From Rosettibacter firmus (lineage in GTDB: Bacteria > Bacteroidota > Ignavibacteria > Ignavibacteriales > Melioribacteraceae): a stretch of DNA of 64,000 nt. The position numbers and the translations under genes were made by a program. The notes under the pieces were generated by a model, which was not told the DNA's origin, did not search any database, and saw only the letters and a program-made list of their open reading frames with translations. The stretch lies in assembly GCF_036860695.1 (NCBI RefSeq), contig NZ_JAYKGJ010000004.1:62001-126000 (forward strand), read 5' to 3'. Shown here one piece after another: positions 4,439 to 36,107 of the stretch. How positions within the stretch are numbered: the stretch's first letter is position 1; each line of letters starts with the position of its first letter.

Positions 4439-6901
4439 ATGAAACAAACGATGATATATTTTATAGTTCTTGCAATGACATACTCAATTTATAGTCAATC
4501 AAATTTGAAAATAAACGAAATGGGATATTATGAATTACCAGGATTAAACATTATGGTATTTGATGATTTCTATCCAGAAGGTCATCAAGGTGGTGTTACA
4601 ATTGTTATGTTCGGGAAACGACTTGCAGCTAATGGAGATTTAAGATTAGAACCTACACCTGGACAATGGTCACCTGTCCCCAAAATTGGAAATAGAATTG
4701 TCGATAAAAAAAATAATACAATTACAGTAGAATTGTGGTATCCTGATTCAAGCAAAGATAGAAAGGGATTTAATCCAATTGAATATCCAGATCTTAAATT
4801 AAAATACAAAATAAGAACTGAAGTTGATGGACAAAGTTTAAAAGTGATTGTTGACCTTGATGAACCTTTACCTGAAGAGTGGTCAAACAAAGTTGGATTT
4901 AATTTGGAATTATTTCCTGGAGAATATTTCAATGAATTTTATTTAATGGATAATAACACAGGGCAATTTCCAAGACAACCAGTTAATGAAATGTTCTATG
5001 ATAGTGATGGAAATCTCCAGATAAAACCACTTGCAGAAGGTAAACAATTAATTGTAGCTCCAGACAAAAAAGAAAAGAGAATAGAATTTTACAGTCTAAA
5101 AAACAAACTTATACTTCTTGATGGAAGAGGATTACACAACAATGGATGGTTTATAATTCGTTCCACAATTCCAGCCAATGTTACTAAAAATGCAATTGAA
5201 TGGATAATAACACCTTCGATTGATACAACCTGGAGATATAAACCTGTAATTCAGATTTCACAGATTGGTTATCATCCTGAACAATCCAAATTTGCAGTGA
5301 TTGAATTAGATAAGCTAACAAAAAAACTTGATGAGATAAAACTTATAAAAATAAATAAAGACTCAGAGAAAATAATCAAACAAGAGAGCAATCCAATTTT
5401 GTGGGGAAATTTCTTAAGATACAAATACATACGCTTCGATTTTTCTGAAATAAAAGAAGAAGGACTTTATAAAATTAAATATGGAAACATAGAATCGAAT
5501 GTATTTGAAATAAAGAATGATATTTTTTCCAAAGGAGTATGGCAACCTACAATAGATTATTTTCTTCCAGCTCAAATGTGTCACATGAGAATTGAAGATA
5601 GATACAAAGTTTGGCATGGGCTATGTCACATGGACGATGCAATTATGGCTCCAACTAATCACAATCATTTCGATGGATATTATCAACATGAATCAACATT
5701 AACAAAATACAAATCAGGAGAACATGTGCCAGGATTAAATATTGGAGGCTGGCATGATGCAGGTGACTATGATCTAAGAATTGAATCTCAAGCAGAAACT
5801 GTTTATAAACTTTCTCTTGCTTATGAATTATTCCACATTGAACACGATCAAACAACTATTGACCAGAACCAGAGATTAGCAATTATACACAAACCTGATG
5901 GCAAGCCAGATATATTACAACAAATTGAACATGGTATATTATCTATAATTGGTGGTTATGAATCTTTAGGTAGATTATATCGAGGGATTATTTGCCAATC
6001 GCTCAAACAATATGTTCATCTTGGTGATGCATCAACTATGACTGATAATTTTATTTATAATGAAAACAAATTAAATCCAATTTTAGAGAAAAAACTTTTA
6101 AATGATGACCGTTTTGTTTTTACTGAAATAAATCCTCAAAGAGAACTTTATGTTGCACAAACTTTAGCAGCTGTTTACAGAGTGATGAAAGATTATAATA
6201 AAGAATTAGCAGAAAAATGTTTGAATATTGCAGAAGAACTATTTATCCAGAATTCTAATATTAATGAAAAAATAAAACTCAATGCTGCAGCTGAACTTTA
6301 CATATCAACATCAAAAGATACTTACAAAAAAATATTATTAAACAATATTGATGAATTATCAAACCACATTGAAAATTATAGTGAAACAATTGGAAGAGTT
6401 GTTGAAAAAATTAACGATAAAAATTTTGTAAATAAGATTGAAGCCAGTGTTAAAAACTATTATAACAAAACAATTGAATTACAAAAAGAAAATCCATACG
6501 GAATACCATATAAACCATATATCTGGGGTGCAGGCTGGGGAATCCAGGAATTTGGAGTGAATTTATTATTACTGCATCTTTACTTCCCACACATTATAAA
6601 TAAAGATTTTGTTTTTAATGCATTAAACTTTGTTCTTGGCTGTCATCCAGGAGAAAACACAGCATCATTTGTTTCGGGCGTCGGTGTAAATTCACTAATT
6701 GTTGCATATGGATTTAACAGAGACGAATGGAGTTATATTCCTGGTGGTGTTGCAAGTGGCACTGCTTTAATTCGTCCCGATTTACCTGAATTAAAAATCT
6801 GGCCTTATTTATGGCAACAATCTGAATATGTTTTAGGTGGAGGAACAACTAATTTCATTTTATTAGCAATAGCTGCAGACTATCTCTATAATAAACAATA
6901 A
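4439..6901 (+). CDS. Secreted GH9 family glycoside hydrolase (cellulase-type) with CelD-N Ig-like domain
   Basis: An 820-residue exported enzyme. A signal peptide (residues 1-19, ending IYSQ) is followed by an N-terminal beta-rich region of about 250 residues with no clear family assignment. A CelD-N Ig-like domain follows (from about 275, with IQISQIGYHPEQSKFAVI), then a GH9 (alpha/alpha)6 domain. The GH9 catalytic aspartates are in GGWHDAGDYD (D440 and D443). The usual C-terminal N-E motif is not obvious; E796 in LWQQSEYVLGGG is the best general-acid candidate. GH9 enzymes cut beta-1,4-glucan and related chains. A strong AAGGAG site precedes the start. It is the first of nine same-strand genes of a saccharolytic cluster. 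Confidence 0.88.
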   Translation: MKQTMIYFIVLAMTYSIYSQSNLKINEMGYYELPGLNIMVFDDFYPEGHQGGVTIVMFGKRLAANGDLRLEPTPGQWSPVPKIGNRIVDKKNNTITVELWYPDSSKDRKGFNPIEYPDLKLKYKIRTEVDGQSLKVIVDLDEPLPEEWSNKVGFNLELFPGEYFNEFYLMDNNTGQFPRQPVNEMFYDSDGNLQIKPLAEGKQLIVAPDKKEKRIEFYSLKNKLILLDGRGLHNNGWFIIRSTIPANVTKNAIEWIITPSIDTTWRYKPVIQISQIGYHPEQSKFAVIELDKLTKKLDEIKLIKINKDSEKIIKQESNPILWGNFLRYKYIRFDFSEIKEEGLYKIKYGNIESNVFEIKNDIFSKGVWQPTIDYFLPAQMCHMRIEDRYKVWHGLCHMDDAIMAPTNHNHFDGYYQHESTLTKYKSGEHVPGLNIGGWHDAGDYDLRIESQAETVYKLSLAYELFHIEHDQTTIDQNQRLAIIHKPDGKPDILQQIEHGILSIIGGYESLGRLYRGIICQSLKQYVHLGDASTMTDNFIYNENKLNPILEKKLLNDDRFVFTEINPQRELYVAQTLAAVYRVMKDYNKELAEKCLNIAEELFIQNSNINEKIKLNAAAELYISTSKDTYKKILLNNIDELSNHIENYSETIGRVVEKINDKNFVNKIEASVKNYYNKTIELQKENPYGIPYKPYIWGAGWGIQEFGVNLLLLHLYFPHIINKDFVFNALNFVLGCHPGENTASFVSGVGVNSLIVAYGFNRDEWSYIPGGVASGTALIRPDLPELKIWPYLWQQSEYVLGGGTTNFILLAIAADYLYNKQ

Positions 6902-34535: not shown

Positions 34536-34790
34536 CCCGGTGAAATTATAGTTAACAAACTAGTTCAAACTACCGTGAATCACGAACATTTCTATGATAA
34601 TTCACAAATCAGAATGCCAATGTATAAATTAGATGGGAAAAAATATTACATACACGATATTTTCAGAAAACTCCATTATGCATTTAAAGGATATTTTATA
34701 TTAAAAGATTATGCAGATTTTCTTGGTGCAAAAATTTATAATGCCAGTTCAAAAAGCTACATAGATGCATTTGAAAGAATTTTCATTTAG
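34536..34790 (+). pseudogene. Remnant of a larger gene (C-terminal fragment, possibly DUF115/MptE-like)
   Basis: The open frame begins right after a TAG at 34533 and runs about 84 codons to a TAG. The only start is a GTG at 34575 with no ribosome site. The end, LGAKIYNASSKSYIDAFERI, looks like the closing segment of DUF115/MptE-like proteins (G-x-K-I-Y-N-A-T-x-G type) encoded in surface-glycan loci, and NHEHFYDN fits a region shortly before it. No upstream part of such a gene is present, so I read this as a truncated leftover. Family match is from memory. Confidence 0.35.
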
Positions 34791-34854
34791 TTCAGCTTCC
34801 TGTTTATCACCATAATATTTTCTCCGGTTTTCAAGTTTGATAAATTTTATTTCA

Positions 34855-34905
34855 TTGAGTATTTTTACTCATCATATTGAGTAAATTTACTCATAATATT
34901 GAGTA
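34855..34905. repeat. Phased array of alternating TTGAGTA / TACTCAT half-sites
   Basis: Five 7-base elements occur at 34855 (TTGAGTA), 34866 (TACTCAT), 34877 (TTGAGTA), 34888 (TACTCAT) and 34899 (TTGAGTA). Each start is exactly 11 bases from the next, about one helical turn, with 4 bases between elements. TACTCAT is the reverse complement of ATGAGTA, so neighbours form back-to-back inverted repeats in a 22-base unit. The array ends 14 bases before the ATG of the broken ATPase at 34920, in the place of an operator or mRNA hairpin set. Confidence 0.85.
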
Positions 34906-34919
34906 TTTTGAATAATTTT

Positions 34920-36107
34920 ATGTATAAAAGAAAACAATACGATCTAATATTAAAAAGACTTAAAGAAAAAGATAATTTTATACAGGTTCTTATTGGACCA
35001 CGACAATGTGGCAAAACTACATTAGCTCAACAAATAGCTGCATCAATTAAAATCAAAACACATTATATAACTGCTGACTCTCCTGTCCCCTATTCAACAA
35101 CCTGGCTGGAACAACAATGGGAAGTAGCAAGACAATTATCCAGAAAATCCTCCAGAGGTGCACTTTTAATTTTAGATGAAATACAAAAAATACAGGGCTG
35201 GTCTGAAGTAGTAAAAAAATTATGGGATGAAGATAAATCTAATAAAATAAACTTAAAAGTAATGATTCTTGGTAGCTCTCCATTATTAATACAAAAAGGA
35301 CTAACTGAAAGCTTAGCCGGAAGATTTGAATTAATTCCTCTTTATCACTGGAGTTTTAGTGAAATGAATGAAGCATTTGGCTGGAGCTTAGAAAAATATA
35401 TTTATTTTGGTGGTTATCCTGGCGCAGCAAAATTAATTAATGATGAACAAAGATGGTCAAATTATATAAAAGACTCTTTAATCTAAACAACTATTTCAAG
35501 AGATATTTTTCTTCTTACAAGAATAGACAAACAATCTTTGTTCCGACAATTATTCAAACTGGGAACCAGTTATTCTTGTCAAATAGTTTCTTATCAAAAA
35601 TTATTAGGGCAACTTCATGATGCTGGCAATACAACTACCTTAGCACATTATCTTCAATTATTATCAAATGCTGGAATGCTGACCGGTCTTCAGAAGTACT
35701 CAGGCTCAGAAATCAGACAACGCTCCTCAAGTCCCAAATTCTTATCTTTAAACAATGCATTAATTACATCTCAATCTCAATACACATTTAAAGATGCAAA
35801 ATTAGATACTAATTTCTGGGGTCGTTTGATCGAAAATGCAGTTGGCTCCCATTTATATTCAGCCACTATTGGAACAAAATTAAAATTGATGTACTGGAGA
35901 GAAGGTTCCTATGAGGTAGATTTTATCTTGCAAAATGGTTCTAATTTAACAGCTATTGAAGTTAAAAGCGGTAGATTAAGAGAAAGTCTTAGAGGTTTTG
36001 ATTTATTCTGTAAACAATATAATCCTAAAAGAAAATTATTAATCGGTCAGGGTGGTATCTCAATAGAAGAATTTTTATTAACACCTGCCAGCGAATGGTA
36101 TAATTAA
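34920..36107 (+). pseudogene. AAA ATPase with DUF4143-type C-terminus, interrupted by one in-frame stop
   Basis: The frame encodes a full-size ATPase of about 396 residues except for TAA at 35484-35486. Before it: Walker A IGPRQCGKTT, Walker B GALLILDEIQK, the sensor region LKVMILGSSPLLIQKG and LAGRFELIPLYHWSFSE. After it, in the same frame: RDIFLLTRIDKQSLFRQLF, then the DUF4143 nuclease-like tail with MYWREGSYEVDFIL and IEVKSGR. The family normally has Glu (GAA) before T-x-I-x-R-D, so a single G-to-T change explains the stop. A TTG at 34899 falls in the repeat array, so ATG 34920 is preferred. Likely a recent pseudogene, or a split gene. Confidence 0.85.

Follow-up and report, generated by a model that had tools for sequence, protein, structure and literature searches.

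The window is a stretch of 64,000 nucleotides from Rosettibacter firmus, and a short array of half-sites lies in it directly in front of a gene encoding an ATPase with an AAA_14 domain (94 bits) followed by a DUF4143 domain (82 bits). The array consists of two perfect TGAGTA-N4-TACTCA palindromes and one lone half-site; read in the other register, its unit is TTTACTCA-N6-TGAGTAAA with a period of 22 bp. A 71-aa open reading frame with no Pfam match is found upstream of the array, at 34575–34790. The features of the locus, in window coordinates, are as follows.

34837–34842, plus strand: −35-like hexamer TTGATA, 17 bp before TATTTT, a geometry enriched in 126 array loci
34856–34861, plus strand: half-site 1, TGAGTA
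34860–34865, plus strand: TATTTT, a −10-like hexamer lying within the first palindrome
34866–34871, minus strand: half-site 2, TACTCA (TGAGTA on the minus strand), forming the palindrome 34856–34871 with half-site 1
34878–34883, plus strand: half-site 3, TGAGTA
34888–34893, minus strand: half-site 4, TACTCA, forming the palindrome 34878–34893 with half-site 3
34900–34905, plus strand: half-site 5, TGAGTA, with a mismatching partner position (GAATAA)
34920–35486, plus strand: 5′ part of the ATPase gene, with an ATG start, the AAA_14 domain at about 34977–35366, and an in-frame TAA at 35484–35486
35487–36107, plus strand: 3′ part of the ATPase gene, in frame with the 5′ part and encoding DUF4143 (the winged-helix part and the nuclease-like part)
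35532–35747, plus strand: predicted winged-helix domain, from an alignment with the structure model of ortholog L030
about 35628–35669, plus strand: predicted recognition helix (NTTTLAHYLQLL), from alignment to the L030 model
35892–35969, plus strand: PD-(D/E)XK-type motif YWREGsyEVDF ... IEVKSG, corresponding to L030 D335, E348, and K350

The 11-base lattice described in the first-pass annotation is exact, with TTGAGTA starting at 34855, 34877, and 34899 and TACTCAT at 34866 and 34888. The adjoining ATPase gene that it named is likewise present, and the distance is corrected: since the homologous start is the ATG at 34920, the last half-site ends 14 bp 5′ of the start. The in-frame TAA, either a genuine nonsense mutation or an error of assembly or sequencing, splits the gene between its AAA and DUF4143 parts and leaves the array intact, and because of this nonsense codon the array in the window may now be an orphan.

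The regularity of the array was judged not to be a chance event from the letters alone, and simulation bears this out. In 200 randomizations of the window under an order-1 Markov model, TGAGTA ladders went no further than two steps, so that not even three half-sites were reached; 60 random versions yielded no ladder of at least four steps, whatever the hexamer, and in the window itself the five-step TGAGTA ladder is the only hexamer ladder with at least four steps. Single TGAGTA hexamers occur at chance level (30 observed versus 29.6 expected), and it is therefore only the arrangement of the half-sites that is unusual. Nor are the repeats scattered over the genome: the exact TGAGTA-N4-TACTCA palindrome occurs at three places in the 3.24 Mb of the R. 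firmus genome, two of them within the array, leaving one other, and dispersed repeats of the REP/BIME kind were rejected on this count.

Within the class, a 38-bp array pattern allowing up to three mismatches was detected in 12 of 197 genomes, and at least nine of these carry it at an ortholog of the ATPase. Scanning the GTDB genomes with a DNA pattern of three half-sites, blind to genes, gave at least 119 loci. Far from the phased repeats being absent from homologous loci, 87 of the 119 GTDB matches listed have the array directly 5′ of an orthologous ATPase gene that points away from it; these comprise 86 loci with the ortholog start no more than 150 bp from the array and locus L107, which has arrays on both sides. 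The host genomes belong to Bacteroidota, Proteobacteria, Nitrospirota, Spirochaetes, Acidobacteria, Verrucomicrobia, Actinobacteria, Planctomycetes, and others, and a Thermoplasmata contig carries the array with no adjoining ATPase gene. Orthologs found by protein, and hence free of array-pattern bias, carry the array too, on the same 11-bp lattice. The search upstream of DUF4143 ATPase genes that had been proposed from the sequence thus recovers the array at orthologs across many phyla. Records of Bacteroides finegoldii and Collinsella aerofaciens have the array at ATPase genes as well, Thermus oshimai has a variant of it, and a version built from TGCGTA half-sites occurs on a phage-labelled contig; plasmid and phage-labelled records also contain the gene together with its array. 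On the Thermus oshimai plasmid, the ATPase gene and variant array are flanked by an ABC transporter permease gene on one side and a cyclase gene on the other. The ATPase gene is patchy yet widespread, being encoded in 57 of 395 genomes of the phylum. That the array is a chance or functionless simple AT-rich repeat has in its favor the AT-rich window and the chance frequency of TGAGTA alone, but the random models never reached it and its conservation across phyla with variable spacers refutes the idea, to which we attach next to no credence.

Aligned units reveal what is being conserved. Across 49 units from orthologs found by protein, the half-site columns carry about 0.8–2.1 bits versus about 0.2–0.65 bits for the N6 spacer, which shows an alternating purine–pyrimidine trend. 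Where one half-site of a palindrome pair deviated, the pair was still complementary in 0 of 21 cases, and only 1 of 42 altered hairpin-arm pairs remained so. Conservation of the half-sites, variability of the spacers, and the loss of hairpin pairing indicate that the signal is read as DNA rather than RNA. The first-pass annotation had offered stacked hairpins in RNA as one of two possibilities, and an array working in mRNA, where hairpins before the start codon would control translation or bind an RNA-binding protein, draws on the closeness of the array end to the ATG and on the predicted fold of the window RNA, which at −17.9 kcal/mol is better than shuffled versions at −9.2 kcal/mol (z −3.6). 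A structured RNA leader was nevertheless rejected despite this good single-sequence fold, as the compensatory stem changes are missing; moreover, the arms pair incompletely in several orthologs (L034 and L050), and the likely transcription start in loci of the Proteobacteria type comes after much of the array. We consider an mRNA function very improbable.

The position of the array relative to promoter elements is also constrained. Among 126 array loci, 19, 27, and 10% have TTG at 16, 17, and 18 bp, respectively, ahead of the TA-rich center of the first palindrome (about 56% together), compared with about 3% at most other offsets. As these putative −35 boxes peak 16–18 bp before it, the center of the first palindrome is probably the −10 box, and a protein bound at the array would cover it. 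In the window, the TTGATA-17-TATTTT arrangement matches at 9 of 12 positions, which taken alone is at chance level, and its geometry is that enriched in the array loci. Several Bacteroidota loci have a TAnnTTTG box immediately 5′ of the array, and in loci of the Proteobacteria type much of the array is upstream of the likely start of transcription.

To place the protein, a structure model was built by AlphaFold2 with 68 orthologs (pLDDT 94, pTM 0.93). It comprises an AAA+ domain, a winged helix (approximately residues 206–277 of L030, as read from helices and strands), and a PD-(D/E)XK-like end; the Walker A and B motifs and D335, E348, and K350 (L030 numbering) are invariant or nearly so in the 68 orthologs. 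Searching the PDB by sequence gave only P-loop matches. With Foldseek, Orc1/Cdc6 on origin DNA and RuvB rank first, and with VIA-align the archaeal ATPases 2qen (Z 16.5) and 2fna (Z 16.4) rank first, with p97 and NLR proteins at 14–15, a small margin. These matches support the fold and not the function, because other AAA+ and NLR proteins score close behind. By the same small margin, the model has the STAND/SSO1545-type arrangement of ATPase and winged helix represented by 2qen and 2fna: the ATPase and winged-helix parts align over about 260 residues with rmsd 3.2–3.6, but identity is only 13–17% and the alignments end near residue 288, leaving the nuclease part outside. The winged helix of STAND-type ATPases is often regulatory, without DNA binding, and we know of no operator arrays for the archaeal proteins 2qen and 2fna.

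Orthologue L030 matches the PADLOC PDC-S01 model PDLC04791 over its full length (residues 5–394, 1.3e-176, 585 bits). The ATPase family is PDC-S01, a very common candidate single-gene phage defense, and the window gene shares the AAA_14 and DUF4143 domains; the full-length match and the ATPase and PD-(D/E)XK residues establish membership, but unlike intact PDC-S01 the window copy has a nonsense codon and its frame is broken. PDC-S01 is described as an ATPase fused to a PD-(D/E)XK domain and as the fourth most common defense across prokaryotes, with 29,494 bacterial and 9,986 archaeal systems; experimental validation is pending for most such candidates (PMC12988326). In the literature we found no description of an operator or of regulation for PDC-S01. 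An AAA_14 and DUF4143 protein of T. thermophilus, TT_P0211, showed expression elevated 6.6-fold in plasmid-carrying cells (PMC4406477). The pTT27 gene TT_RS11170, annotated as an ATP-binding protein and probably the same gene as TT_P0211, has a palindrome TGAATGA-CTA-TCATTCA just 5′ of its ATG (L236, about 6074–6100, minus strand).

Divergent members of the family provide a hint as to the reader of the array. The most divergent change every half-site together, to GTGAGC-type in L048 and L056 and TGCGTA-type in L051, and in these three loci the predicted recognition helix differs as well (NAATIA and NTSTLV versus NTTTLA). In some other members the recognition helix differs and the half-site does not. 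The joint change of half-site and putative recognition helix, seen in a few lineages only, is suggestive and not proof.

Not every array has a gene. Of the 119 GTDB loci listed, 32 (for example L065, L074, and L111) have no adjacent ATPase gene, about 27 of them with both flanks visible and five at a locus edge. Weak protein remnants were detected by tblastn at four solo arrays; most show nothing. Three loci (L038, L107, and L140) have a second array just downstream of the ATPase gene. The Lunatimonas pair L140/L172 differs by an internal deletion of the gene and not by an insertion, and Lunatimonas salinarum (L172) keeps the downstream array, demonstrating that gene deletion can leave an array behind; the approximately 27 solo arrays are only partly explained. 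Such arrays, the few downstream copies, the patchy and widespread gene, and the conserved nuclease-like motif would suit a mobile or homing element, whose ATPase-nuclease would act at the repeats, moving or copying its own gene, and for which solo arrays would be targets or scars. We detected no clean empty site or target duplication in the Lunatimonas and Thermus pairs examined, the Thermus flanks having no clean junction. A mobile element with terminal repeats was rejected on these grounds and because downstream arrays are present in few loci, and since homing would also leave the promoter geometry unexplained and the Lunatimonas pair reflects a deletion, we judge that reading unlikely.

Upstream repeats extend beyond the window subfamily. 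From genomes of the window's family, 80 DUF4143-type genes were collected; dropping near-duplicates and the six genes of the window type gave a set of 72. The DNA upstream of these shows self-repetition at lags of 33 bp (z 14.2) and 32 bp (z 12.6), and that of 65 control genes shows none (z 0.2 at lag 33). Individually, 54% of the DUF4143 genes and 8% of controls have significant direct repeats at 20–23 or 31–35 bp (Fisher 2e-9), lags that were picked after viewing the sequences, while the lag profile behind the z values covered all lags. Significant inverted repeats occur at 47 versus 6% (3e-8), and direct or inverted repeats at 76 versus 14%. The repeats differ among DUF4143 paralogs and are common mainly to close ones. 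In the R. firmus genome, two DUF4143 genes in tandem (L012 and L010, contig C2, about 528–530 kb) have different repeats ending at the ATG, those of L012 being 23 bp long and exactly 33 bp apart, and some genomes encode 13–15 DUF4143 paralogs. In the window subfamily the period corresponds to two turns of DNA (22 bp), in the other DUF4143 genes mostly to three (32–34 bp). The DUF234 sister family is rare in the phylum. We found no literature on DUF4143 upstream repeats or on the array motif itself, and family-wide private upstream repeats at DUF4143 genes are new and wider than the window array.

The array, its conserved promoter place and absence of genomic scatter, the independently conserved half-sites, the predicted winged helix, and the private arrays of the paralogs favor the idea, raised in the first-pass annotation, of a cooperative one-face operator for ATPase autoregulation. 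The array is probably a transcriptional operator bound cooperatively by the DUF4143 ATPase, which would control its own gene. Since the half-sites recur every 11 bp, the proposal is that ATPase subunits sit side by side along a single face of the DNA, each reading one TGAGTA half-site through its winged helix and holding on cooperatively, probably aided by ATP-dependent contacts between AAA+ domains. The bound filament would lie over the −10 region (in Bacteroidota, over the transcription start) and repress the gene; were the protein titrated away or changed in state, for example when foreign DNA invades, expression would rise. We infer that the ATPase itself binds, that its binding represses, and that invasion relieves the repression. 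Support for the ATPase as binder is only indirect, coming from the predicted winged helix and the concerted half-site changes. Promoter overlap and half-site conservation are also compatible with another reader, a host or cotravelling regulator for which the ATPase gene is merely a target. A nonsystematic look found no other gene consistently adjacent, however, and the array is nearly unique in its own genome. The gene and its array are spread over many phyla and also occur on plasmid and phage-labelled records, which makes a shared host regulator unlikely, and a regulator would need to codiversify with each of the paralogs that carry different repeats within one genome. We therefore regard a separate reader as a rather unlikely alternative to autoregulation by the ATPase.

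Among known systems, Orc1/Cdc6 proteins, which place AAA+ and winged-helix domains on repeated inverted boxes, offer a fair mechanical analogy, but the TM-scores are low (about 0.33) and the array is on a promoter and not at a known origin. Most type II toxin–antitoxin cassettes are negatively autoregulated (PMC7730913), and as with their operators, the protein product here is thought to occupy inverted repeats over its own promoter; here, though, there is no antitoxin partner, and a single protein would unite the ATPase, the nuclease-like part, and the DNA-reading part. The mycobacterial IniR, an ATPase with an SSO1545-like domain, binds a promoter and regulates transcription (PMC5760070), but unlike the putative array-reading ATPase it is an activator of another operon with a separate C-terminal DNA-binding domain.

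A broader and still speculative possibility is that the superfamily of single-gene ATPase-nucleases, among the commonest candidate defenses, consists of self-contained sensor-effectors, each polymerizing on its private array and stored there at rest; when DNA invades or host transcription is lost, the protein would come off, turning the gene on and arming the nuclease, and the up to 15 paralogs of a genome would be orthogonal channels. Although PDC-S01 genes number in the tens of thousands, we found no paper that says how they are controlled. The family-wide, paralog-specific signature of a probable operator is a first handle on PDC-S01, and from it a target sequence can be predicted for each protein, which makes specificity, autoregulation, and induction directly testable. 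In addition, the signature supplies a collection of operator–reader pairs that seem orthogonal to one another.
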